Of a stretch of DNA of 64,000 nt, positions 12,346-23,820 are shown piece by piece (the first letter of the stretch is position 1; each line of letters begins with the position of its first letter). The notes beneath the pieces were generated by a model. The model did no database searches. It was not told the origin of the DNA and worked only from the letters and a program-made list of their open reading frames with translations. Both the position numbers and the translations under genes were made by a program. This DNA is from Aromatoleum toluvorans (GTDB lineage: Bacteria; Pseudomonadota; Gammaproteobacteria; Burkholderiales; Rhodocyclaceae), in NCBI RefSeq assembly GCF_012910905.1, contig NZ_WTVN01000012.1:1-64000 (forward strand). The letters run 5' to 3'.

Positions 12346-12451
12346 CCCGATCACTCCCACTCGATCGTTGCCGGCGGCTTGCCCGAGATGTCGTACACGA
12401 CGCGGTTGATCCCCCGCACCTCGTTGATGATGCGGTTCGACACCTTGCCGA
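12346..12451. repeat. attL: 106-bp direct repeat of the guaA 3' end
   Basis: These 106 bases are identical to 22250-22355, which hold the last ~101 bases of guaA plus 5 bases beyond its stop. Outside the repeat the sequences diverge at once on both sides. This is the signature of site-specific integration into guaA. The copy here has no gene upstream of it and cannot be expressed as GuaA; it is the displaced chromosomal 3' end. Confidence 0.95.
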
Positions 12452-12497
12452 ATGAGGAAAAATCGGCTGCGCATCAATGGGTTACGACACTTCAATT

Positions 12498-12523
12498 GCT
12501 GTACCTCTCCTGCCTGTCCAAGC
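12498..12523. repeat. Left subterminal inverted repeat, candidate integrase arm site
   Basis: Read on the reverse strand this begins GCTTGGACAGG and ends AGGTACAGC. The right end of the element has the same two blocks in the opposite orientation at 22112-22140, with 3 extra bases between them. It lies 46 bases inside attL and just upstream of the integrase start, so it could be an arm-type integrase or excisionase site that also controls int. Confidence 0.7.
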
Positions 12524-12545
12524 CCTGACCGTTTGGGGGCTTGAA

Positions 12546-13583
12546 ATGAACATCCGACAACGGGGCGACCGCTTCCAAGTGCGGGTCACAGTGGCCGGTC
12601 AAACCGCTACCCGCACTTTCACATCGAAGGCGGAGGCTACACGATGGGCACGTCATCAACAAGTTGCGATGGAGCGCGGGGAGTACGAACCACCCCGCCC
12701 TGCCGTCACCCTTGCCGAAGCGATTGATCGCTATGAACGGGAGGTCCTCCCTTCCAAGCGGGGCGCGGCACAGGAGCGCTACACCCTCAAGGCGTGGCGG
12801 GCTTCCGCGCTGGGCCGCTGCTCACTGGCTACGATCAAGGCTGCGGACGTCGCGCAGGCACGCGACAAGCGGCTGCAGGAGGTTTCCAGCGGTTCCGTGC
12901 GTCGCTACCTGGACACCCTATCCGCTGTGTTCGAGGTCGCCGCCCGAGACTGGGAGATCGTCACCGCGAACCCGGTGCGGGCGATACGGAAGCCGCCCAA
13001 CGGGCGCCCGCGCGAACGGCGCCTGCTACCGGGCGAACTGGAACGCATCATTGCCGCGTCCGAATCGCCCGACTTCCCGGCAATCGTCACGCTGGCCGCG
13101 GAAACGGCCATGCGGCGATCCGAAATTCTCGGGCTCGAGTGGCGGTATGTCGATCTGCGCAAGCGCCTTGTAACGCTTCCCCTCACCAAGAACGGCGACT
13201 CCCGCACGGTCCCCCTGACGCGCAAAGCGGTCGAGGTTCTTTCCACGCTGCCGCGCAGGATCGACGGCAGGGTGTTCGACAAGAACGGCACCAGCTTATC
13301 AGGCGCATTCCAGCGCGCCGTCCTGCGGGCCCGCCGCAGCTACGAGCGGGAACGCTCCGAAGCTGGCGCCACGGCCGCGGAAATCGGGCAAGACGGGTAT
13401 CTGTGCGACCTGCGGCTTCACGACCTGCGCCATGAACGCGTCAGTGCGCTGGTTGAGGGCGGGTTCAGTCTGATCGAGGTTGCGGCGATCAGCGGACACA
13501 AGACCATGCAGTGCCTCAAGCGGTACAGCCACGTCCGGCCTACACACTTGGTCGCCAAGCTGGACGTGATGGGAAGTCGATAG
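12546..13583 (+). CDS. int: Tyrosine recombinase / integrase of the guaA element
   Basis: A 345-residue integrase that should catalyse integration into and excision from guaA. An N-terminal arm-binding region (1-50) and a SAM-like core-binding domain (about 54-148) precede the catalytic domain (about 155-335). Active-site residues are visible: Arg190 in TAMRRSEIL, Lys215 in LTKNGDSR, His292 and Arg295 in HDLRHE, His318 in SGHKT and the nucleophile Tyr327 in KRYSHV. The ATG at 12546 is chosen; an open extension to 12477 would run into the subterminal repeat. It reads away from attL into the element. Confidence 0.95.
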   Translation: MNIRQRGDRFQVRVTVAGQTATRTFTSKAEATRWARHQQVAMERGEYEPPRPAVTLAEAIDRYEREVLPSKRGAAQERYTLKAWRASALGRCSLATIKAADVAQARDKRLQEVSSGSVRRYLDTLSAVFEVAARDWEIVTANPVRAIRKPPNGRPRERRLLPGELERIIAASESPDFPAIVTLAAETAMRRSEILGLEWRYVDLRKRLVTLPLTKNGDSRTVPLTRKAVEVLSTLPRRIDGRVFDKNGTSLSGAFQRAVLRARRSYERERSEAGATAAEIGQDGYLCDLRLHDLRHERVSALVEGGFSLIEVAAISGHKTMQCLKRYSHVRPTHLVAKLDVMGSR

Positions 13584-13632
13584 TGCCACCCGGGGCCGGA
13601 ATCGTGCCCCACAACATACCGGAGAAACCACC

Positions 13633-14100
13633 ATGAACACCTTTAAAGCCCTTGTCGACCACCTCGCCGCCCTCCTCCATACGGACCTGGAGGGCGTGGA
13701 GCGCCTCATTCGATGGCCTGAAGCCGAAGGGTTGCAGCGTCGCGGTAGCTTCATGCGGAAGGAGACTTTCGCGCGGGCCTATGCGGGCGGGTGCGTGCAC
13801 GAGCGGGTCACCGCTAACTTGGTCGAGGTCACGCCCCTGGCTCACGACCATATCGAGGCCCTGTCGGGGGTGCAGGACCGTGTCGGCTTCCTGCTCGCCA
13901 ACATCACGAAATCCGCCCCCATTGGCAGCGTAAGGCGCCTGTGCGGGCTCAGTTTCGGGCAGATGGGGCAGGTATTGGGCGTGCATCATCAGACGGCCCG
14001 CGCGCTGTGTGGCCCTTCCTGGCTGTACTACAGGGACCATGACAGGCTTTTCGCGCGGCTGGCTCCGACGCTCGCCGGATGGGTAGGCGCTCGCGGCTGA
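13633..14100 (+). CDS. Unknown protein of the element with a possible helix-turn-helix (155 aa)
   Basis: A soluble protein starting MNTFKALVDHLAALLHTDLE, with GGAG 10 bases before the ATG. Near residues 103-125 the segment VRRLCGLSFGQMGQVLGVHHQT reads like a helix-turn-helix (helix, Gly turn, helix), so a DNA-binding role such as excisionase or regulator is possible. It lies 49 bases after int on the same strand. I do not recognise a family. Confidence 0.65.
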   Translation: MNTFKALVDHLAALLHTDLEGVERLIRWPEAEGLQRRGSFMRKETFARAYAGGCVHERVTANLVEVTPLAHDHIEALSGVQDRVGFLLANITKSAPIGSVRRLCGLSFGQMGQVLGVHHQTARALCGPSWLYYRDHDRLFARLAPTLAGWVGARG

Positions 14101-14197
14101 TTATTCCGTCTGGTTGCTCTTTCAAAATTCGGAAGCTATTCTCGGGCCGGGGCTAGATCGGCCAATCGAACCGGAGCGCAACCCCGTCCGCGCTCCC

Positions 14198-14236
14198 GCC
14201 CCGTCTCTTTTCCGATGGGCGGGCTTGGGACGGGGC
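14198..14236 (+). promoter_or_regulatory. Hairpin that could hide the ribosome site of the 275-aa gene
   Basis: GCCCCGTC (14198-14205) can pair perfectly with GACGGGGC (14229-14236). The second arm contains the GGGG that sits 5 bases before the ATG at 14241. An additional CCCCGTC copy at 14182-14188 could compete for the same arm. This makes translational control plausible, but no protein or ligand is implied by sequence alone. Confidence 0.4.
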
Positions 14237-14240
14237 AATA

Positions 14241-15068
14241 ATGAAAGACTCTATTTTCGCGCGCTCGCAGCGCAACGAACTTGGCGAAACGCTCTCACTT
14301 GAGGACGTCGCAAGGCTTTCGCGGTGCAGCCTTGACGACGTTCACGGCCAGATAAATAACGACGACCCCTTACTTCGGCGACTGTACACCCTTATCAGTT
14401 TGGGGCAGTTGACCCCGGCAAAGACTGAGGACTATCTGATGCCTGAACTCGTGTTGGGGAGTTTTGGTGGGCGGGCCGTCAAAACCCCTTCGAGTCCTGC
14501 GAAGCGTTATTTCATTGATCCCGCCGCACTGCACCCCCATCGCGAGACCCTTGGTGACATCGGCCCTGAACTCAATAAGTGGTTGGAATCGGAGGACCTG
14601 CCCTCGGAAGACCACGCCGACTTCGACGCCAAGTCGGCGCGCGAAACCGCAACGTCCAAACCAAGAGGCGCGAAATTCACCAAACAGGATTGGGAGGACG
14701 ATTACTTCCGGCGCATAAACCCATTGGGGGCAATCTTGGCTGGGGCCGCGAGGAAGGGGAAGGCCGCGCTAGGCGACCTTCTCAACGGTAAGGATCTGAA
14801 ATTTACTATCCCTATGATGTACGAAGCCCTTGGGAAACCTGAGGATCTTAAAGGCTCCGACATACTCCGCCTCCCCCCTGTTAGGGACGCTGAAACCCTG
14901 CGGCACGCTGCCGAGCGTGCCTATCCTAGTTTTGAGTTTCCTCGGACGAAGGTTTCTGACAAGGTCGGCACTCTCGCACTCATGAGGGAATGCTATGAGA
15001 TTGGCGAACCTCTTGTCATGAGTGGCGAGGGGTGCGAGATCCTCAAAAGGGAAGGAATTACCGTCTGA
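14241..15068 (+). CDS. Unknown protein of the element (275 aa)
   Basis: A soluble protein with an N-terminal segment (LSLEDVARLSRCSLDDVHG, about 18-36) that resembles a helix-turn-helix. A charged middle (about 115-155) and a C-terminal region ending KREGITV follow. It contains no catalytic motif I can name. The start has a GGGACGGGG ribosome-site-like stretch that may be sequestered in a hairpin. It is separated from the previous gene by 140 bases, which suggests its own promoter or control. Confidence 0.6.
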   Translation: MKDSIFARSQRNELGETLSLEDVARLSRCSLDDVHGQINNDDPLLRRLYTLISLGQLTPAKTEDYLMPELVLGSFGGRAVKTPSSPAKRYFIDPAALHPHRETLGDIGPELNKWLESEDLPSEDHADFDAKSARETATSKPRGAKFTKQDWEDDYFRRINPLGAILAGAARKGKAALGDLLNGKDLKFTIPMMYEALGKPEDLKGSDILRLPPVRDAETLRHAAERAYPSFEFPRTKVSDKVGTLALMRECYEIGEPLVMSGEGCEILKREGITV

Positions 15069-15073
15069 TTCCA

Positions 15074-15116
15074 TTCCGCGCGGAAAGTCGCGCGGAAAAT
15101 CGCGGAGTCGCGCGAT
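15074..15116. promoter_or_regulatory. Cluster of CGCGCGGAA repeats and a 12-bp palindrome
   Basis: The gap between two unknown genes holds the perfect palindrome TTCCGCGCGGAA (15074-15085). It is followed by repeated TCGCGCGGAAAATCGCGG-like units and a final TCGCGCGATCCG. The reiteration within 43 bases looks like an operator array or a structured RNA element upstream of the replication operon that starts at 15171. No -10/-35 pair is obvious. Confidence 0.5.
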
Positions 15117-15170
15117 CCGTTTTCAGGGGAATTTTAGATTGGCCTCACCTAAACACGAGGGCCAATCCCC

Positions 15171-15917
15171 ATGAAACAAGACCACTTTTCCGTTTCTGAA
15201 ACGGATTTCTACAAGGTCATGCCGCAGATCACGCGGCTTGTCTGGTTGCTCGAAGGAGCGAAGCCGAACCTTCGGCAGGTGCTGCTGCGCGGTCAGGCAC
15301 ATCCGGGTTTTCACCCCCTACAGAGCGAGCTTCGGAATCTGGATCGCGTACTGCGGTCATTGCCGATTGAGCGCGACATCGACGGGGGCCCGTGCTTCTC
15401 CTCCCATGGCAAGGACGTGGGGTGCAGCATGAAACACACGTTTCATATCGCCACGAAACAGGCGGCGCGACTGGCGCGCGTCGAGCCTCATGTTCTTTAC
15501 CAAGCGCGTGCCCGGAACGGTCATTGGCGCGGCATCGCGCCCACGAAACTCCCGAACGGGCGCTTGCTCTGGCGCGGCGATCACATCGCAGAAGTCGCCG
15601 GCATCATCCCCAACTATGCCGACCAGACGCCGGGTGAACGGGCACTGATTACGTTCCTGGAGCAACAGGGGTTTCCGGTCACGGCGGAATACTGGAACCT
15701 CGGCCGCACGCTCCTGGACGTCGAACGCGATCCCTGCGCCGACCCTGCGGACCTTGTTGGGGAAGCGCGCTTCGTTACCGAAATCGTGGTGGCGCTCTGC
15801 ACAAGGGTGGAATGCTCGCTCCCTGCAATAGACGACGTTAGCAAGCGCAGGGTGATTGCCGCACTCGGATTGATCGCTTCGCAAGCTACCTCTTTCACGG
15901 GGGTGGGCGATGAGTAA
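15171..15917 (+). CDS. Unknown protein at the head of the replication operon (248 aa)
   Basis: A soluble protein with no signal peptide. Residues ~92-140 (KQAARLARVEPHVLYQARAR, then GHWRGIAPTKLPNGRLLW) look like a small DNA-binding/excisionase-type module: a helix-turn-helix followed by a basic beta strand. An in-frame ATG at 15429, just before this module, could be an alternative start. The stop codon overlaps the next ATG in the string ATGAGTAA, so translation of the next gene is probably coupled. I do not recognise the N-terminal part. Confidence 0.6.
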   Translation: MKQDHFSVSETDFYKVMPQITRLVWLLEGAKPNLRQVLLRGQAHPGFHPLQSELRNLDRVLRSLPIERDIDGGPCFSSHGKDVGCSMKHTFHIATKQAARLARVEPHVLYQARARNGHWRGIAPTKLPNGRLLWRGDHIAEVAGIIPNYADQTPGERALITFLEQQGFPVTAEYWNLGRTLLDVERDPCADPADLVGEARFVTEIVVALCTRVECSLPAIDDVSKRRVIAALGLIASQATSFTGVGDE

Positions 15918-16161
15918 GCTGAATCTTTCGAGACAAGCGCAGTGCGCCCGCCTCCTCGCCTGGCTGCGCGAACACGGCCAAATAGCGACCAGCGAATGCC
16001 GCGAATTGCTGGCAATCATGAGTCCCGCCGCGCGTATGATGGAGTTGCGTAAACAAGGTTTTTCGATCAAAACCGTGTGGCGCAAGGTTTCCGACTCGGA
16101 AGGGGTGATCCACACGCAAGGCGTTTACATCATGGGCGCGGGGGGCTGCGAGCATGAGTAA
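15910..16161 (+). CDS. Small winged-helix DNA-binding protein (83 aa)
   Basis: A compact helix-turn-helix protein. Helices RQAQCARLLAWLREHG and ATSECRELLAI are followed by a recognition-type helix SPAARMMELRKQGF and a beta wing. Such proteins commonly sit just upstream of replication proteins in phages and satellites. The gene overlaps its neighbours on both sides by 8 bases, each time through ATGAGTAA, implying coupled translation. It could regulate the replication operon or help load the primase; sequence alone does not decide. Confidence 0.75.
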   Translation: MSKLNLSRQAQCARLLAWLREHGQIATSECRELLAIMSPAARMMELRKQGFSIKTVWRKVSDSEGVIHTQGVYIMGAGGCEHE

Positions 16162-18604
16162 TACGCTCGATTTTGCTCTCGCCTACGCGGCGAAACTCCC
16201 CGGACGCATGTTGCCAGTCGTTCCCAAGGGCAAGCGGCCGGCCATCGGGGATTGGGTCAATGCCGCGTCGCGCGACGAGGACACATTGGCGCGTTGGTTC
16301 AGCGAAACGGCGAATAACCTCGGCTGGACGCCTGATCGCGGTGTGTTCGTGCTGGACATCGACACGAAGCCCGACGAGGGCGGGCGCAACGGATTTGACA
16401 CGCTGCACGATTTGGAATCGAGGTTCGGCGCCCTGCCCGCGACCTTGACTGCAACCACGCCGACAGGCGGAAAACACATGCTTTTCCGGTGTGATAACGA
16501 CGTTCCGGTCAAGTCGATTGTCGGATCTAAACTCGGGTACAGCGGTATCGACATTCGCGCATCAAGCGGGCAGATCGTTGTCGCGCCGTCCGTTCGTGCG
16601 GAAGGCGTCTATCAGTGGGACGGGTGGGACCCGACCGCAGAGGACGCCCCGCAGATCGCGGACGCCCCCGATTGGCTGGTTCGCCTTGCCTGCGGGCGTG
16701 ATACAGCGAATGGGAAGGGTACACGGGCAACTGCAGCGCCCAAGGGGCAAGGTGTCGGGCGCGCTGAGGGCAAGGTGTGTGCTGGTGCGCGGAATGCCAC
16801 GCTGGTTTCGGAAGCGGGGGCGCTGCGGCGCCGGGGCTGGGGCTTTACTGCGATCGTGGAGAGCCTCACGGCCTTGTCCGAGAGCCAGTTCGATCCGCCG
16901 TGCGATGACAGGGAGATTCGCGAGGTGGCACGCTGGGCGTGCGGGTTCGATCCCGACGAGGGGGCGGATCTCGCAAGTGGTGTTGGCGCCGACGACTACG
17001 CTTCCATGCTTGATGACGCGGAAGGCGACGCCGGGGCCGTGGTTGAAGTAGCACGCCGGTTCAACGCCGACGAGCGCCTCTCGAGGACGGAAGCGCAAGC
17101 CCTGCTCAAGCGGGCGTCGAAGGCTGCAGGCGTCTCCATGAAGGTGCTGTCGGCCGATCTGCGGGCGCCTGCTGACGCCGGGAACATGCCGGTCATTGAG
17201 ATCAGGCGGGGCGACTTTGCCGGGAGCGTTCGGAGTGCCGAAGCGATGCTGTCATCGGTGCCGGGGCTGCGCGTCCGCTCCGGCGCCCTGGTCGAGGTCG
17301 TGCGGAGCGGCAAGCGCGCCTCCATCGCCGCCGTACAGCCCGCCCGCCTCGCCTTCATGCTCGCGGACGCGGCCCGGTGGCGTTACGGGGACGAGTTTGG
17401 CACCCCTGACCCCGCTGTACTGCAGGCGGTAATGGCGGGGCCGAAACCCGGTGTTCCCGAACTGGACGGGCTAATGACACAGCCCTCGCTCACCGCAACC
17501 GGCGAAATCCTGCTGACACCGGGGAACCACGAGGGATGGGAAGCGGTGTTCGACCCTGCCAGTTTTCCGCCTTTCGAGGGAAGCGGCGCCGACGCGCTAC
17601 AAGCGCTGCGCGGGCTCCTCGCCGGGTTCCCGTTCGCCTCTCCGGTCGATGAGTCGGCGGCGCTCAGTGCGATCCTGACCGCAGCGTGTCGCCCCTCGCT
17701 GCCGACTGCGCCCGCGTTCCTGGTCGCGGGGCACGATCTTGGCAGCGGTAAATCCTTCCTGGCACGGGTTATCGCCGCGTTCGCGGCCGATGAAGCGGAC
17801 ATGAAACGCTGGCCGGGGCGCGGCGAAGAACAAGACAAGGTGCTGACAAGTGCGCTGCTTGCTGGTGAGTTCGTCATGTCCTTCGACAACCTCATGACCA
17901 ACTGGAGTTCGGCGACCCTGGCCGCGATCCTGACCGCGCCGACCTACTCCGATCGACTCCTGGGCGGCAATGAGGTTGCGCGGCTCTCGACCCGCTGCCT
18001 CGTGATTGCGAACGGCAACAACGTGCGCCCTGCTGCCGACCTGGCAAGGCGCGTCGTTACGGTCGAGCTTGATCCGCGCGTGGAACGCCCTTGGGAGCGG
18101 AGCTTCGACTTCGACCCGCTCGCGATCGTGCGCGCAGACAGGGGCAAGTGGGTCATGATCGCCTTGCGCGTCCTGCAGGAGTTCGTCCAGTCCGGGACGG
18201 CTCCCGATCTTTCGCCCTTCGGCTCTTTCGCGGAATGGTCCCGGCTCGTGCGCGGCGCGCTTGTGTTCCACGGCCTGCCCGACCCCGTGCGCGCGGTCAG
18301 CCGCAACGTCGAGGACGACGACGAGCGCGAGTTGTTGGGACGCCTGCTGCAGGCTTGGTTTGACGTGTATGGCGCCGAACCCGTGACACTGCGCGACGCC
18401 CTGCAAGAAGTGCGCGGCATGGCGTCCGGGCCGCGGGAAGCGCTGCGGATCGCCTTCGAAGAGGTGGCGCTGCGGCGCGGCGAGATCGACGCCAAGGCGC
18501 TTGGCAGCTGGATGGCGGCCCGACAAGGGCAGATCGTGAAGGGCAAGCGACTGTTGAGGGCCGGCCGCACCTACAAGGGGGCGGCATGGAAAGTAACGCC
18601 ATGA
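16154..18604 (+). CDS. Bifunctional primase-polymerase / helicase replication protein
   Basis: An 816-residue replication protein. The N-terminal prim-pol domain (about 5-175) has the metal-binding pair D68-I-D70, the TPTGGKHML motif with His108, and D133 in GIDIRASSGQ, as in archaeo-eukaryotic-type primases of plasmids and phages. A middle region (about 190-270) fits a primase C-terminal helical domain. The C-terminal part is an ATPase with Walker A HDLGSGKS (Lys533), an acidic-hydrophobic Walker B-like VMSFDN, a sensor-type IANGNN, and an Arg-containing LARRVVTVEL. It should prime and unwind the excised element. The iteron-rich region follows directly. Confidence 0.88.
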   Translation: MSNTLDFALAYAAKLPGRMLPVVPKGKRPAIGDWVNAASRDEDTLARWFSETANNLGWTPDRGVFVLDIDTKPDEGGRNGFDTLHDLESRFGALPATLTATTPTGGKHMLFRCDNDVPVKSIVGSKLGYSGIDIRASSGQIVVAPSVRAEGVYQWDGWDPTAEDAPQIADAPDWLVRLACGRDTANGKGTRATAAPKGQGVGRAEGKVCAGARNATLVSEAGALRRRGWGFTAIVESLTALSESQFDPPCDDREIREVARWACGFDPDEGADLASGVGADDYASMLDDAEGDAGAVVEVARRFNADERLSRTEAQALLKRASKAAGVSMKVLSADLRAPADAGNMPVIEIRRGDFAGSVRSAEAMLSSVPGLRVRSGALVEVVRSGKRASIAAVQPARLAFMLADAARWRYGDEFGTPDPAVLQAVMAGPKPGVPELDGLMTQPSLTATGEILLTPGNHEGWEAVFDPASFPPFEGSGADALQALRGLLAGFPFASPVDESAALSAILTAACRPSLPTAPAFLVAGHDLGSGKSFLARVIAAFAADEADMKRWPGRGEEQDKVLTSALLAGEFVMSFDNLMTNWSSATLAAILTAPTYSDRLLGGNEVARLSTRCLVIANGNNVRPAADLARRVVTVELDPRVERPWERSFDFDPLAIVRADRGKWVMIALRVLQEFVQSGTAPDLSPFGSFAEWSRLVRGALVFHGLPDPVRAVSRNVEDDDERELLGRLLQAWFDVYGAEPVTLRDALQEVRGMASGPREALRIAFEEVALRRGEIDAKALGSWMAARQGQIVKGKRLLRAGRTYKGAAWKVTP

Positions 18605-19020
18605 CCGCGCAAGCGGTGCTCTCTTGTTCCTCGCGGCCGTCCGTGGAACAATTTTTTCGTGGAACAAGTCAGGGTGTCAGGGTTCGAAAATTCTGGTGTC
18701 AGGGTCCGCAGCCCAGCAACGGCGCGGATTTCAGGCCAAAACCTGACACCCTGACACCCTGACTCTATGCTGGCTGGCTGGAAAACATATATATCGCTCT
18801 ATGCATATACGCTCCGCTCCCCCCCCCACTTGCGCACCCTGAGTCAGGGTGTCAGGTTTTTGCTTTTGTCATACCTAAGCGCTAGTATCGGCGCGGGTTT
18901 CAGAGGCGTCGCCTACCCTGACACCTGTCAGGGAACGTGTCAGGCTTGAGTCAGGGTATCAGGGGCACCGAGCGTGCGACGCCTAGCCCCTCGGGCAAGG
19001 GGTGCCCAGCCGGCGACACC
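18605..19020. other. Non-coding iteron-rich region, putative replication origin
   Basis: Between 18668 and 18965 at least twelve copies of the octamer GTCAGGGT or close variants occur in both orientations. Tandem pairs start at 18668 and 18843, a reverse-strand triplet spans 18741-18763, and more copies are at 18698, 18915, 18927, 18939, 18950 and 18958. An AT-rich stretch (18781-18812, ACATATATATCG-like) in the middle could be a DNA-unwinding element. Position directly after the primase-helicase gene fits an origin. The last part (18966-19020) is GC-rich without repeats. Confidence 0.75.
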
Positions 19021-19061
19021 GTTACGGCGTAACGCTGCTATAATCGCTGTTACTGCGTAAC
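19021..19061 (+). promoter_or_regulatory. Promoter flanked by two palindromic operators for the RHH regulator
   Basis: Two palindromes, GTTACGGCGTAAC (19021-19033) and GTTACTGCGTAAC (19049-19061), bracket a perfect -10 box TATAAT (19039-19044). Their centres are 28 bases apart. The predicted start of transcription, about 19051, lies in the second palindrome. A dimeric repressor bound here would block the promoter. The next gene encodes just such a small DNA-binding protein, so autoregulation is likely. Confidence 0.75.
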
Positions 19062-19076
19062 GTTCGAGATTTTCCG

Positions 19077-19304
19077 GTGGCGACAGCGGCAGAACGACAA
19101 GCGGCTTATCGGCGCCGACGCGCCGAAGGCAACGGCGACAAGCGCCTCAACACCTGGATCAGCGCGGCCGCCAGCGCGGCCCTTGACCGCCTGACGTTGC
19201 ATCACGCGACAACGCGGCGTGCGATGCTCGAACGCCTGATTCTGGAGGCTGACAGCGCCCTGTCCGTCGAGCCCGCCGAAGAGGACAAGGAGAACGACCA
19301 ATGA
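19077..19304 (+). CDS. Ribbon-helix-helix type small regulator (75 aa)
   Basis: A 75-residue protein beginning with GTG. The pattern of a basic N-terminus (AERQAAYRRRRAEG), a short strand (KRLNTWIS) and two helices (AAASAALDRLTLHH and TRRAMLERLILEAD) fits a ribbon-helix-helix repressor such as CopG/Arc. No strong Shine-Dalgarno precedes the GTG. The promoter carries two palindromic operators, and the gene may set the copy number of the element because it adjoins the iteron region. It overlaps the next gene by ATGA. Confidence 0.75.
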   Translation: MATAAERQAAYRRRRAEGNGDKRLNTWISAAASAALDRLTLHHATTRRAMLERLILEADSALSVEPAEEDKENDQ

Positions 19305-19732
19305 GCGACATCACCTCCACCGCCCGTGTAGATGCTAACCGCGAGGAAAGCCGCACCGCGGCCCAAACCGCAGCCGTGGTTCCTGCCCTCGCCCTTGACC
19401 ATCGGGAAGCCAAGGCCCGCGCCCTGTCCGTCTTGTGGACCGGAGATCCCTCGATCGCGGCCCGCGACGCGTTCAACGCCCTGGCCGAACGCAACCGCCA
19501 GCTTGTAAACGGAAGCCCCGCCGAAATCCGCGTCGCGCTCGCGGATCAAGTCGCGCTCCTGGAGGCGACAGTTTCCGCCTACACCATTGCCGCCGCCCGC
19601 GAACGCAAGATTGAGAACCGCCGCGCCCTCGCCGGGGTCGCGCTCCGTGCCTCGACCACGCTCACACAAGTCCTGCTCGCCCTGCACCGCGTCACCGAGG
19701 ACCAGCGCAATGGCGCAGCGATCAACGTCTAA
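19301..19732 (+). CDS. Unknown helical protein of the element (143 aa)
   Basis: An Ala/Arg-rich, probably all-helical soluble protein with the stretch ADQVALLEATVSAYTIAAAR (about 84-103). The ATG overlaps the stop of the RHH regulator by 4 bases (ATGA), so the two are coupled and probably share function or stoichiometry. There are no motifs I can name. Genes of this kind follow plasmid and phage regulators frequently but lack characterised roles. Confidence 0.65.
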   Translation: MSDITSTARVDANREESRTAAQTAAVVPALALDHREAKARALSVLWTGDPSIAARDAFNALAERNRQLVNGSPAEIRVALADQVALLEATVSAYTIAAARERKIENRRALAGVALRASTTLTQVLLALHRVTEDQRNGAAINV

Positions 19733-19949
19733 ATTGCTGCGCATGAGGGCGCAGCGGGCGGAGAGTGCTGGCGCCAAGCGACGCCGCGACCTCGCCCAAC
19801 GTTACCCGGATGTACCTGTGCAGGCGTGGGCGAACATGGGTGACGGGGTGTTACATGGAGTTGGCGCGGCAGCGCTGCGCGATTGGTTGGCTAGCACGGA
19901 AGAACTCGGAACGGCTCTTAAGCTGCCTATACGCTTGCCTCACCGCTAA
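19710..19949 (+). CDS. Small basic hypothetical protein (79 aa)
   Basis: Starting at the ATG of MAQRSTSKLLRMRAQRAES, inside the end of the 143-aa gene (23-base overlap), this frame encodes a Lys/Arg-rich N-terminus and a C-terminal helix (AAALRDWLASTEELG). The frame stays open far upstream, so the start is uncertain. It ends 23 bases inside the convergent Mrr-type gene. It may be a genuine small gene of the regulator operon, but evidence is limited to coupling and codon use. Confidence 0.4.
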   Translation: MAQRSTSKLLRMRAQRAESAGAKRRRDLAQRYPDVPVQAWANMGDGVLHGVGAAALRDWLASTEELGTALKLPIRLPHR

Positions 19950-20670
19950 TCAGAGTCGGAAAATTCTTTTGCACATGCTCGCGCAATCCTGGCAACTCGG
20001 AGTGATGTAGCAACATTACCCCGAGCGCACTTGCAAGCTGCCTTGCAGATGGTGTGTAGTCTGCGTTGGAAACAACCAGCGCAATATCGCACTGCTCGAA
20101 CTGCCGCCCTGCAGCGACCTCCTGCACAGCCTTGTTCCCCACGGGTTGCCCATAACGCTTACACTGAATAGCGACTCGCAAGTTGCCAATTATGGCGACG
20201 AGATCGACGCCCTGATCCCCTGTGCCGCCTTTCCGCACAATTGACCAGCCGTGGCGCCTCAAGACATCGGCGCAATAAACCTCGTAATCGGGACCAGTAA
20301 GTAAGTCGGTATCGAAGGGTACGGCATCGGGAACATACAGCTCCAAACGCTCATCCACGAGGCATTGAATGGTCGTCGCATTGACGGGGCTGAGCCTTGA
20401 AATCTCCCGGTCCGTGTTTATCACCTGGTCTGTGAAATAGACTACCTCTCTTGCCCAGTCATCAAGTCCCGCCTCTTTTCCATAATCATCGGTATATACA
20501 CATTGGTGACGTTTCATCGAGAGAGTTGAAAGATGCTCATTGATTAGTTCAATCGCTCTCTTTGTCGCCACTTGCCGTTTGTCCGTGCTCGCTTTTACAA
20601 AATAGGCGAAGAAAACAGGGATGCAGACTATCAAAACGAAGATGACGATTAGTACGCTGGAAATGCTCAT
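19927..20670 (-). CDS. Membrane-anchored Mrr-type restriction endonuclease
   Basis: A 247-residue protein. An N-terminal transmembrane helix (about 4-24) is followed by a helical linker and an Mrr_cat PD-(D/E)xK nuclease domain (about 122-235). Visible catalytic residues are Glu130 in DYEVYCADVL, Asp156 in GDQGVDLVAI, and Gln169-Cys-Lys171 in AIQCKRYGQPVG. Mrr-type nucleases act as type IV enzymes on modified or foreign DNA. The start has AGGAGG upstream. Reverse orientation relative to the replication genes and lower GC suggest cargo. Defence against phage or competing elements is the likely role, but this is inference. Confidence 0.82.
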   Translation of the reverse strand: MSISSVLIVIFVLIVCIPVFFAYFVKASTDKRQVATKRAIELINEHLSTLSMKRHQCVYTDDYGKEAGLDDWAREVVYFTDQVINTDREISRLSPVNATTIQCLVDERLELYVPDAVPFDTDLLTGPDYEVYCADVLRRHGWSIVRKGGTGDQGVDLVAIIGNLRVAIQCKRYGQPVGNKAVQEVAAGRQFEQCDIALVVSNADYTPSARQLASALGVMLLHHSELPGLREHVQKNFPTLISGEASV

Positions 20671-20765
20671 GCCACCTTCCTCCTTTCACCATGTTTAGTC
20701 GTCATCACACTTGCACAGTATCTGGCGCTCCACTTGTGTTTGGCTCGTAGGCTCCTATTGTTACC

Positions 20766-21173
20766 TTACAACTTGCGCCCGGCAATGTTGGCTGCCTGGG
20801 CGGCGTCGATCTGCGTAGCCGTGAATACGGGACGCCACAGCCACATCTGCAGCGAGTAACCGATCTCGATGTAATAGCTCTTATCGGCCTCGACGACGAA
20901 GGAGGCGGGCGCTCCCGTCGAGGCGACCAACGTCTTACCCACGGGAACGTAGCTTTTCAGGTGGCCGCCCGGCCCGATGTCGCCGATCTGCATGCCATTG
21001 ATGAATACCGGCGCCGCGATTGCAGAGCCGGTAAAGTTATTCGCGCGAACCAGATGCACTGTCGCAGATGGTGCCCCCGCGGGCACCTCGACGTGATAAA
21101 ACTGCGACGTCTCCGCACATCCGGCAGCGAGCAAGCCGGCAATCGCGCCGATCATGAACCCGCGTCGATTCAT
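20766..21173 (-). CDS. Lipoprotein, DUF2846-like (135 aa)
   Basis: The signal peptide MNRRGFMIGAIAGLLAAGC has a lipobox (LAAG-C19), so the mature protein is a lipid-anchored envelope protein. The mature part is beta-rich, with FINGMQIGDIGPGGHLKSYV resembling the small lipoprotein family DUF2846. The ATG at 21173 is chosen because GGAGGT sits 7 bases upstream; the longer frame is not supported. It lies in the cargo part of the element, 23 bases downstream of a second lipoprotein gene. Confidence 0.72.
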   Translation of the reverse strand: MNRRGFMIGAIAGLLAAGCAETSQFYHVEVPAGAPSATVHLVRANNFTGSAIAAPVFINGMQIGDIGPGGHLKSYVPVGKTLVASTGAPASFVVEADKSYYIEIGYSLQMWLWRPVFTATQIDAAQAANIAGRKL

Positions 21174-21196
21174 ATCTGACCTCCGTCGTTCGGACA

Positions 21197-21694
21197 TCAA
21201 TGGGTACAGAATTCTTCCCACGCGACCTCTAATGCAGTCGTTGGGATCGACTCAGAGTTCATATGTTGATTCTGTGGAATTAAATTAAGCGCCATTAACT
21301 GCAACTTTGTCGCATTTACTTGCGCTGTTGCTTCAAATTTTTCAATCGTTACGCGCGCAGATAAATGGTCAATCATTTTCTCAGCGCTATCACGGCTCTT
21401 ATTTCCGCTCGCATATACACCTGACTCATTTCCTACAAGTACAGCGTTTCCAATAACAACATAGCGCGTGAACCCAACCATTGCACCAAAAGAGTTCTTT
21501 GAATTTACCTCGCCACAATATACTTTCTCGCTGTCCACCTCTGAAAATCTACCGACCCGCTGGTTTCTGAATTCCGCGGACGACGCGTCTTTGAGCAAAT
21601 ATCTGACCCGAGTCTCATCCTCACCTTCAAACAGACCACATGCACTCACGAGCATGATGATTAGGCCGGCGCCTATTACGTGATCGATTCGCAT
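21197..21694 (-). CDS. Predicted lipoprotein (165 aa)
   Basis: The start MRIDHVIGAGLIIMLVSAC is a signal peptide with lipobox VSA-C19. The mature region has one further cysteine pair candidate and the hydrophobic strands AMVGFTRYVVIGNAVLV (about 72-88), but no family I can name. AAGGG lies 8 bases before the ATG. Low GC compared with neighbours supports foreign origin. It is probably cotranscribed with the following DUF2846-like lipoprotein. Such envelope cargo could alter phage adsorption or surface exclusion; this is speculation. Confidence 0.65.
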   Translation of the reverse strand: MRIDHVIGAGLIIMLVSACGLFEGEDETRVRYLLKDASSAEFRNQRVGRFSEVDSEKVYCGEVNSKNSFGAMVGFTRYVVIGNAVLVGNESGVYASGNKSRDSAEKMIDHLSARVTIEKFEATAQVNATKLQLMALNLIPQNQHMNSESIPTTALEVAWEEFCTH

Positions 21695-21715
21695 AAATCG
21701 CCCTTTTATGAGCAT

Positions 21716-22194
21716 CAGAAAAGATCTGTCGCCTCTGCCCGACGTCTTCTCCGACCGAGGCTAAAGCCTATCCCGGTCACATACGATATTCACAACATGG
21801 GCTGAGATGATGTGACATTTAACACATTCCCGTGCACAGGCGAGACCTCCGACAGCGTGACCGACTCATCAATCCAAGGTCGAAATCCAAGAGTTTGAAA
21901 ACCTCGCTCGGATCTCAGAGCCCCCTGGGTCGCCATAGCAAAAATTTACCGAAATAAAACTTACTACGTCATCAAACTATCGTCATGACGAGGTTGATAG
22001 TCGCATAAACAATGACGCGGTGCTAATGTAACGACAAGGGCGAGGGGTTCGCCCCGGCAGATGATGGACAGAAAGCTTGTCCATTTTTCTGTCCATTCAC
22101 ACGTTGTAATTGCTTGGACAGGTAGAGGGCTAGGTACAGCGGCAGGGCGAGCGGCCAGCGGGCGGCCATGATGGTACATGTAGGCCACGGAGAC
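21716..22194. other. Gene-free right end of the element, with candidate integrase/excisionase sites
   Basis: No convincing gene is seen in these ~480 bases. The right subterminal inverted repeat (22112-22140) mirrors the left one at 12498-12523. Nearby TGGACAG/CTTGTCC units (22065-22070, 22076-22083, 22089-22095) share its core. One pair forms an inverted repeat, TGGACA-N6-TTGTCCA. The clustering within 130 bases of attR fits arm-type binding sites. The reverse-strand frame at 21964-22188 has no ribosome site and unusual composition. Confidence 0.6.
22112..22140. repeat. Right subterminal inverted repeat, candidate integrase arm site
   Basis: GCTTGGACAGG then AGGTACAGC within 29 bases, the mirror of 12498-12523. 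The two copies lie 46 and 109 bases from their respective direct repeats. Confidence 0.68.
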
Positions 22195-22230
22195 AAAAAA
22201 GCCTAACGTTTTCAGGCGTTAGGCTTTCTT
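22195..22230 (-). terminator. Strong bidirectional terminator at the right end of the element
   Basis: GCCTAACG (22201-22208) pairs with CGTTAGGC (22217-22224), extended by AAA/TTT, with six T residues in the leftward transcript. It lies 24 bases after the guaA stop inside the element, so it would end guaA transcription before it reaches element genes. Confidence 0.85.
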
Positions 22231-22249
22231 GGAACACCGTAGGTTAGAT

Positions 22250-22355
22250 CCCGATCACTCCCACTCGATCGTTGCCGGCGGCTTGCCCGAGATGTCGTAC
22301 ACGACGCGGTTGATCCCCCGCACCTCGTTGATGATGCGGTTCGACACCTTGCCGA
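22250..22355. repeat. attR: 106-bp direct repeat overlapping the functional guaA 3' end
   Basis: Identical to 12346-12451. The element carried its own copy of the last guaA codons, so integration leaves guaA intact. Confidence 0.95.
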
Positions 22356-23820
22356 GCAGGCTGTGCGGGAGCTCCGCCCAGTGCGCGGTCATGAAATCCT
22401 GGGTCTGCACCGCGCGCAGCGCCACCACGTACTCATAGGTGCGCCCGTCGCCCATCACCCCGACACTCTTCACCGGCAGGAACACGGCGAACGCCTGGCT
22501 GGTCTTCTCGTACCAGTCCGCCGCACGCAGCTCGTCGATGAAGATCGCATCGGCACGGCGCAGCAAGTCGGCGAACTCCTTCTTGACCTCGCCGAGGATG
22601 CGGACGCCGAGACCCGGGCCGGGGAAGGGATGGCGGTAGACCATGTCGTGCGGCAGGCCCAGCGCGATGCCGAGTTCGCGCACCTCGTCCTTGAAGAGTT
22701 CGCGCAGCGGCTCCAGCAGCTTCAGGTTCAGCGTCTCCGGCAGCCCACCGACGTTGTGATGGCTCTTGATCGTGTGCGCCTTGCCGGTCTTCGAACCGGC
22801 GGACTCGATCACGTCGGGATAGATCGTGCCCTGCGCCAGCCACTTCGCGTTCGGCAGCTTCTGCGCTTCCGCCTGGAACACCTCGACGAACTCGCGGCCG
22901 ATGATCTTGCGTTTCGCCTCCGGATCCGAGACGCCCTTGAGATGGCCCATGAACTGCTCGGTCGCATCGACGTGAATGACCTTCACGCCGAGGTTGCGCG
23001 AGAAAGTCTCCATCACCTGTTCGGCCTCGTTCAGGCGCAGCAGGCCATTGTCGACGAACACGCAGGTGAGCTGGTCGCCGATCGCGCGATGCAGCAGCGC
23101 CGCCACGACCGACGAATCAACGCCGCCGGACAGGCCGAGGATCACCTCCTCGTCGCCCACCTGCGCACGCACCTTCTCGATCGCCTCCGCGACGTAGTCC
23201 GGCATGTTCCAATCGTGACCGCAACCGCAGATCTCGTGCACGAAGCGGGCAATCATTTCCTTGCCCTTGATCGTGTGCGTGACTTCCGGATGGAACTGCA
23301 CGGCGTAGAACTTGCGCGCTTCGTCGGCGATTGCCGCGATCGGGCAGGCTTCGTTGCTCGCGATCACCTTGAAGCCCGGAGGCATCTCGGTGACCTTGTC
23401 ACCGTGGCTCATCCACACGTCGAGCAGGCCGTGGCCCTCGTCGTTCGTGCGGTCCTGGATACCGCGAAAGAGCTCCGAATGGCCGCGGGCACGGATTTCC
23501 GCGTAGCCGAACTCGCGCTTGCCCGAGCTCTCGACCTTGCCGCCGAGCTGCTGCGCCATCGTCTGCATGCCGTAGCAGATGCCGAGCACCGGAACACCCA
23601 ACTCGAAGACGGCCTGCGGGGCTTTCCAGTCCAGCGCCTCGTACACCGAGTTCGGTCCGCCCGACAGAATGACGCCGGCCGGTGCGAACTTGCGCACGAA
23701 ATCATCGGAAACGTCGAAGGGATGGAGTTCGCAATACACCTGCTGCTCGCGCACGCGACGCGCGATCAGCTGGGTGACCTGGGAACCGAAATCGAGGATG
23801 AGGATTTTCTGGTGAGCCAT
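22255..23820 (-). CDS. guaA: GMP synthase (glutamine-hydrolysing)
   Basis: A 521-residue cytosolic enzyme that converts XMP, ATP and glutamine to GMP. The N-terminal class I amidotransferase domain (1-~195) has the nucleophile in [12 protein letters not shown] and the His/Glu partners in QFHPEV. The ATP-pyrophosphatase domain has the P-loop [17 protein letters not shown] (about 228-244), and the dimerisation domain ends in PPATIEWE. The last ~34 codons are supplied by the integrated element. It is 70 bases downstream of guaB, separated by a terminator-like hairpin. Confidence 0.98.

Follow-up and report, generated by a model that had tools for sequence, protein, structure and literature searches.

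What is the insertion of about 9.9 kb that lies beside guaA in Aromatoleum toluvorans, and how might it move? The stretch analysed here, hereafter the window, comprises 64,000 nucleotides of contig NZ_WTVN01000012.1. Between two copies of the 3′ end of guaA it carries a compact set of genes, which the first-pass annotation had described as an integrative element with replication genes and without transfer or capsid genes. The integrative and replicative nature of this element is very probable on the evidence below. Judged by sequence, it belongs to a mosaic family whose members come mainly from Azoarcus/Thauera-type betaproteobacteria. Taken as a whole, the reading that we favour, at about an even chance, is that of a self-excising, self-replicating integrative element organised like the Gram-negative phage-inducible chromosomal islands (PICIs), and most likely a phage satellite. 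Of interest are the element family itself, its origin of replication and its link to the int-alpA RNA.

Precise insertion into the 3′ end of guaA

The boundaries of the element are given by the following features:
12346..12451, no strand: left attachment repeat, a 3′ fragment of guaA, 106/106 identical to 22250-22355
22250..22355, no strand: right attachment repeat, the 3′ end of intact guaA, 106/106 identical to the left copy
22255..23820, minus strand: guaA, the intact host gene, an open reading frame (ORF) of 521 aa with 99% identity to that of the congeneric genome G233
22201..22217, minus strand: terminator-like hairpin at the right element end; the same stretch is present after guaA in Thauera terpenica

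The perfect repeats claimed earlier are therefore borne out, with a spacing of 9,904 bp between the two exact copies. The stop codon of guaA (TGA, 22255-22257) falls within the right repeat and the 521-aa ORF is intact, as the first-pass annotation had proposed in calling the integration precise and the host gene kept. From these alignments, the element is a precise insertion into the 3′ end of guaA. Its G+C content is 0.606, compared with 0.641 in the remaining window.

Downstream of guaA in 17 loci of the genus (the window's own included; one cut by a contig end), an empty site was not seen, and the left flank of the window had no blastn match downstream of guaA in these loci. A left-flank gene is shared with G233, where it lies 13 kb from guaA and the interval is occupied by a different island. 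Because the left flank is unmatched and the G233 interval is filled by another island, no clean empty allele can be put beside the occupied one. The G233 island (L099:2445-15657, from guaA to a DUF3348-like gene, a label that is our own reading) encodes HigB, AbiEii and DUF3375 and SMC-like proteins that we read as Wadjet; no integrase was noticed in it, and no repeat longer than 21 bp. Two of the 17 genomes (G262 at locus L081 and G100 at L083) carry a different integrase near guaA, with 56-62% identity to the second integrase of the T. terpenica locus L100 described below. The 3′ end of guaA thus looks like an apparently shared insertion site.

A replicase followed by two inverted iteron sets

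Integration and replication would be served by four features:
12477..13583, plus strand: tyrosine integrase (PF00589, E 2.9e-21; phrog_1 integrase, E 2.3e-56)
15910..16161, plus strand: winged helix-turn-helix protein, overlapping rep (PF14090, E 9.6e-17)
16154..18604, plus strand: rep, 816 aa, with Prim-Pol primase, PriCT and P-loop helicase-type parts (PF09250, E 4.9e-26; PriCT_1, E 2.3e-4)
18667..18966, no strand: putative replication origin directly after rep, with 8-bp iterons of the GTCAGGGT type in two sets of opposite orientation around a spacer of ~87 bp

The profile matches uphold the tyrosine integrase and the prim-pol/helicase gene that had been read from the sequence. The integrase, whose translation could also start from the ATG at 12546, carries the motifs MRRSE, HDLRH and GHKTMQCLKRYSH, which we take to be of the integrase catalytic type. 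The rep protein contains DID, GGKH, GSGKS, FDN and GNN, presumably primase and P-loop motifs. Comparison of rep with solved structures gave nothing credible (best E 0.15), and its structure model was too poor (pLDDT 44.4) to be taken into a fold search.

Iterons were assessed by comparing the commonest 6-mer of each region with 500 dinucleotide shuffles. Across the 472 bp after rep this 6-mer occurs in 12 copies, a number reached in 0/500 shuffles, which confirms the iteron region noted at first.

A mosaic family with a common backbone

Six elements with both repeats were found, the window's included, with lengths of 7.6-11.2 kb. The other five, referred to by locus number, are inserted as follows:
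L031: moaC; repeats of 114 bp, 99.1% identical
L032: moaC; repeats of 82 bp, 100% identical (82/82)
L036: moaC; repeats of 102 bp, 100% identical (102/102)
L033: tRNA-Met gene; repeats of 50 bp, 100% identical (50/50)
L106: LUD-domain gene; repeats of 101 bp, 99.0% identical

The common order is integrase, variable genes, winged helix-turn-helix gene, rep, origin region, regulator, g143 and a 79-aa gene; individual loci have gaps in this order. The winged helix-turn-helix gene is also found in L031, L032, L033, L036, L049 and L106. An IS66-type transposase lies in the gap between two rep parts in L036, and L106 encodes an AlpA protein (PF05930, 7.2e-12). Beyond rep and the origin, the shared part in the window comprises:
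19021..19062, no strand: two GTTACkGCGTAACG palindromes flanking TATAAT upstream of the small regulator, a putative autoregulatory operator
19077..19304, plus strand: small regulator, ribbon-helix-helix (RHH)/CopB-like by weak assignment (phrog_536, E 0.011; NF010256, E 0.036)
19301..19732, plus strand: g143, the hallmark gene of the element family, with 53-90% identity in five relatives
19710..19949, plus strand: 79-aa gene (the 'WLAS' protein, our name), overlapping g143, no family match

Inverted iteron sets lie directly 3′ of rep in the window, L031, L032, L033 and L036, with spacers of 76-93 bp and with differing words. The iteron test gave 0/500 shuffles for the window, L032, L033, L034, L036 (only the 627 bp adjoining rep) and L101; L032 and L034 are near-identical and hence not independent. 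The regulator is conserved in L031, L032, L034 and L036 and the palindrome pair upstream of it recurs in L031 and L054/L101, with three matches to GTTACkGCGTAACG at two sites in the window compared with 0.05 expected. The RHH regulator of the earlier reading stands as a small conserved gene behind this palindrome pair; as to its family, the profile matches are weak and no Pfam family scored above the cut-off.

In the taxonomic family, rep had matches at E<=1e-10 in 39 of 395 genomes, mostly distant ones, and g143 in 11 of the 395; both counts include the host genome. Within the order, g143 was found in two of 300 genomes, our own and G520 of another family, in which a rep match (query 4-815, 40.6% identity, one in-frame stop crossed) precedes g143. 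A scan of the genome collection for g143 reduced 295 candidate stretches to four confirmed records, in Azoarcus sp. Aa7, T. terpenica, Thauera phenolivorans and Methyloversatilis universalis. The g143 model is all-helical (pLDDT 71.7) and its fold search gave no match at E<=0.001; by sequence, g143 had no match among plasmids and phages.

The first-pass annotation had proposed to look for the same gene order between guaA repeats in other genomes. T. terpenica has a relative with guaA sequence at both outer ends, but split over two contigs, both breaking in rep; the five relatives with both repeats sit at moaC, tRNA-Met and the LUD-domain gene. Projected onto the T. phenolivorans element, the two T. 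terpenica contig ends come to lie <=5 bp apart, a pattern expected if something had inserted there and duplicated a short target. Matches between the initial 90 bp of the two contigs are no longer than 7 bp and point to no particular insert. Since its integrase match (L049:3620-4684) contains a stop codon and rep is broken at the contig end, the T. terpenica copy may be inactive. Additional integrative elements, in which rep relatives are enclosed by direct repeats, lie at L048:5811-16267 (80 bp, 98.8%) and L050:7242-14330 (50 bp, 90%), with no g143 match there.

Exchange of integration and replication modules

The integrase tree groups the window with T. terpenica, both at guaA (support 100). 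In the rep tree T. terpenica instead groups with T. phenolivorans at moaC (100) and the window with L031 at moaC (90). This conflict shows that integration modules have been exchanged and that the insertion site changed with the integrase. DNA identity between the window and L031 is 81-85% in three blocks (643-3,848 bp long) and 68% in a short segment within the integrase region; the guaA 3′ ends of the two hosts are 96.7% identical.

The replicase is likewise variable. The rep N-terminus comes in two types, with Pfam Prim-Pol seen in the window and not in L032, and the protein at the helicase place matches AAA_25 in L104 and L105 and D5_N/DUF5906 in L103. These three loci, near tRNA genes, keep g143 and the 79-aa gene type despite their other helicase types; by its distribution the g143 and 79-aa pair evidently outlives replicase exchange. 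The 79-aa gene is an addition to the gene list of the first-pass annotation. Using three tblastn queries, relatives of it were detected in 10 of the 12 other element loci (L031, L101, L102, L032, L033, L034, L036, L104, L105 and L106). The eleventh, L103, supplied a query, and L108 has none; a preceding text search had recovered the gene from 8 of 10 other loci. Forms like the window's match one another, as do those like the L103 one, and the two groups are linked by position and by eye only. The recurrence of g143 and the 79-aa gene as a pair in 11 of the 12 other loci suggests that they have a common role that goes beyond replication.

What emerges from these comparisons is a compact family: integrative replicons that share a backbone, with exchangeable integrases (for guaA, moaC, LUD-domain gene and tRNA sites). 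The primase and helicase parts are also exchangeable, and the iteron words vary while the origin layout stays.

An int-alpA-like RNA ahead of the replication genes

Between the integrase and the replication block, the window contains:
14146..14219, plus strand: int-alpA RNA-like match (RF02996), full model 1-71, 26.0 bits against a cut-off of 35.8
14241..15068, plus strand: g3, 275 aa, directly 3′ of the int-alpA-like RNA; no Pfam or PHROG family

The E value of the RNA match is 0.057 over 10.1 kb and 0.0014 over 251 bases. At the corresponding place, matches were obtained in L036 (42.2 bits), L106 (43.4 bits), L031 (37.2 bits) and L033 (34.8 bits), the one in L031 having been missed at the gathering threshold and found with permissive filters. 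A full-length match between the integrase and the replication block is hence present in five of the six complete elements, three of them over the cut-off (L031, L036 and L106). No int-alpA match was found in L049, L101, L102, L105 or L035; several of the unmatched loci are partial. By eye, rather than by tool counts, the alignments keep the CUAG and CGAA segments and the closing stem varies on both sides, its fourth pair being G-C, C-G, A-U or U-A in the cmscan alignments. One copy of the regulator palindrome lies ~40 nt upstream of the RNA in L036. Relatives of g3 reach 36% identity in L033 (N-terminal part only) and 25% in L049.

We know of no function assigned to the int-alpA class. Its setting at a fixed position of the family backbone would make the function of this orphan RNA directly testable. 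A further int-alpA RNA, at L042:12573-12640, has an integrase and a remote relative of rep as neighbours, with no g143 match in the region; this region may be prophage, and one long ORF tested there had no Pfam match.

Variable and cargo genes

The remaining genes of the element are as follows:
13633..14100, plus strand: g2, 155 aa, 83% identity in L031; no credible family by profile searches
15171..15917, plus strand: g4, 248 aa, 37.7% identity to a part in L049/L100
19927..20670, minus strand: Mrr-type nuclease, cargo (PF04471, Mrr_cat, E 2.3e-21)
20766..21221, minus strand: putative lipoprotein, start possibly 21173 (DUF2846, 3.6e-6, below cut-off); ~90% identity in L031
21197..21715, minus strand: putative lipoprotein (phrog_2320, unknown function, 8.7e-18); 78% identity in L031

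Genes from the integrase to the 79-aa gene form the backbone, all on the plus strand, and the three cargo genes are on the minus strand. The nuclease is confirmed as cargo, and a relative with 37% identity lies at the same element end in L101. Matches to a defence library were partial and confined to the nuclease domain, and no defence system is claimed. The lipoprotein cargo proposed at first agrees with our reading of the N-termini; its profile support is limited to the sub-cut-off DUF2846 match of one of the two. Among the element proteins scanned by profile, no terminase, capsid, relaxase or type IV secretion system (T4SS) match was recognised, in keeping with the earlier statement that transfer and capsid genes are lacking.

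How the element would spread

Under the favoured reading, the integrase would recombine the two 106-bp repeats and release a circle, and Rep would bind its own iterons, melt the spacer and prime replication. The small regulator would repress its own operon, while the int-alpA-like RNA in the leader would gate g3 and rep. The element would then spread in helper-phage particles. For this final step, the phage-satellite assignment with its presumed dependence on a helper, we would put the chances at even or slightly below. In favour of the reading as a whole, the origin layout is kept with different words in different elements, as described for PICIs.

A number of observations weigh against this reading. 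Pfam and PHROG scans gave no AlpA or MerR match in the window element, and neither the element nor the scanned genes of its relatives include a recognisable gene for packaging or capsid remodelling. The int-alpA match of the window (26.0 bits) is below the Rfam cut-off of 35.8, and L032 has no match to this RNA. In L031 (24/500) and L106 (117/500) the iteron words fall short of significance, and the origin spacer is only mildly AT-rich (45%, compared with 42% in the whole origin region and 39% in the element). Among IMG/VR viral contigs no rep or g143 relative was found, and the integrase had two distant matches only; these scans depend on an exact short peptide pattern. Megablast against plasmid and phage records gave no match, and phage matches to rep were distant only, all <60% identical and none covering 80%. 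Homologues of the helicase part of rep, moreover, occur on small plasmids. Finally, the draft genome of the host has no phrog_2 terminase match, although 11 of 14 control genomes do (other terminase families were not searched). It also has no match to PF03135 (TrbE/VirB4), a profile that detects the T. terpenica gene and was positive in one of 14 controls. No resident helper of those kinds is therefore evident.

Several of these points fit a cryptic integrative plasmid, which would excise and replicate like a small plasmid, have no dedicated transfer and travel by generalised transduction or DNA uptake, integrating with its own integrase. The helicase-part homologues are on small plasmids of M. 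nodulans (12.6 kb) and Psychrobacter (6.5 and 17.7 kb), and rep and g143 had no match in the viral contigs scanned. Published precedents include a class of cryptic integrated elements with an archaeo-eukaryotic primase (AEP) and without conjugation or phage genes (PMC5862659), and a satellite able to move by natural competence (PMC13376191). However, the origin and gene order fit PICIs and not a random plasmid, and g143 and the 79-aa gene co-occur in 11 of 12 other loci. On balance we regard a cryptic plasmid as rather unlikely, while ranking it first among the alternatives.

An integrative mobilisable element (IME), mobilised in trans by a conjugative helper through an unrecognised oriT or carried along in cis by a neighbouring integrative and conjugative element (ICE), is improbable. 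Its best support comes from T. terpenica (L100:4744-20000), where the integrase end abuts a guaA fragment, beyond which lie a second integrase and genes for conjugation (among them TrbI and a TrbE/VirB4-type ATPase). This arrangement amounts to two different elements in tandem at guaA. Yet such a tandem was seen in one relative only, no relaxase match was found in the element proteins, and the host genome has no PF03135 match (one of 14 controls positive). A degenerate prophage remnant that retained its integrase and replication genes is very improbable: phages often carry related integrases and primases, but random decay would not leave six elements of 7.6-11.2 kb that have their gene order in common and repeats that are almost perfect, and no structural gene was recognised among the scanned genes.

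Returning to the phage satellite, one may speculate further. In phage P4, the CI RNA keeps the replication operon off. By analogy, the elements could be an undescribed Azoarcus/Thauera-type satellite lineage. The int-alpA RNA would then be an immunity switch in the leader ahead of g3 or alpA and rep, placed under the element's repressor and silencing the replication operon as long as no helper phage has arrived, with g143 and the 79-aa gene as helper-facing genes. We consider this specific scheme unlikely as a whole.

Comparison with known systems

Among the titles and abstracts of the literature matches listed, which mostly did not cover subscription papers and preprints, no published description of the family was found; the one paper listed on int-alpA deals with vesicle RNAs of E. 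coli. ICEs and IMEs are marked by a relaxase and ICEs also by T4SS genes, and no relaxase or T4SS match was found among the element proteins. P4-type satellites have an integrase, a primase-helicase replicase and an iteron origin. The window element shares these three features, whereas no counterpart of psu, delta or sid was recognised. To the int-alpA RNA class it has a full-length, sub-threshold match between integrase and replication block, but the gene after the window RNA is g3 and not alpA.

The cryptic integrated AEP elements are close in content. PMC5862659 describes integrated elements without conjugation or phage genes, and also an AEP element that lies towards the 3′ end of a gene for GMP synthase. 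The window element likewise has a putative AEP gene and direct repeats, with no conjugation or phage genes recognised. Unlike the present family, that class is described there as highly variable in gene content, with no common backbone, origin or RNA mentioned in that text.

The 'minimalist' islands of Vibrionaceae (PICMIs) lack capsid-remodelling genes, according to the available text of PMC10803314. They resemble the element in their small set of excision and replication genes, in the absence of capsid-remodelling genes and in a site at a conserved gene. The PICMI model given there calls for int together with alpA, a DUF3987/DUF5906 primase and fis, of which the last three were not found in the window element. 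It has a PF09250 Prim-Pol instead and a guaA site, while a DUF5906 protein is present in the relative L103.

The nearest organisation is that of the Gram-negative PICIs, and the first-pass annotation, which recognised no described family with this gene order, is corrected on this point by PMC6092414. As described there, these islands have the integrase on the left, a rightward backbone with a primase-rep gene followed by an iteron origin, and accessory genes on the right, the origin consisting of two iteron sets directly after rep. The window element differs from them in that no terS or capsid gene was recognised and alpA is found only in the relative L106. Its PF09250 Prim-Pol domain may be a further difference, and the family uses the 3′ ends of guaA and moaC as sites. 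Because AlpA was not found and packaging genes were not detected, we do not file the element as a PICI. It nevertheless has an integrase with a specific site, rightward transcription of the backbone and an origin 3′ of rep with two iteron sets, the AT-rich part being weak (45%). With islands such as EcCICFT073 it thus shares the integrase-left order, the two-set iteron origin, the accessory genes at the right end and insertion at a specific chromosomal site.

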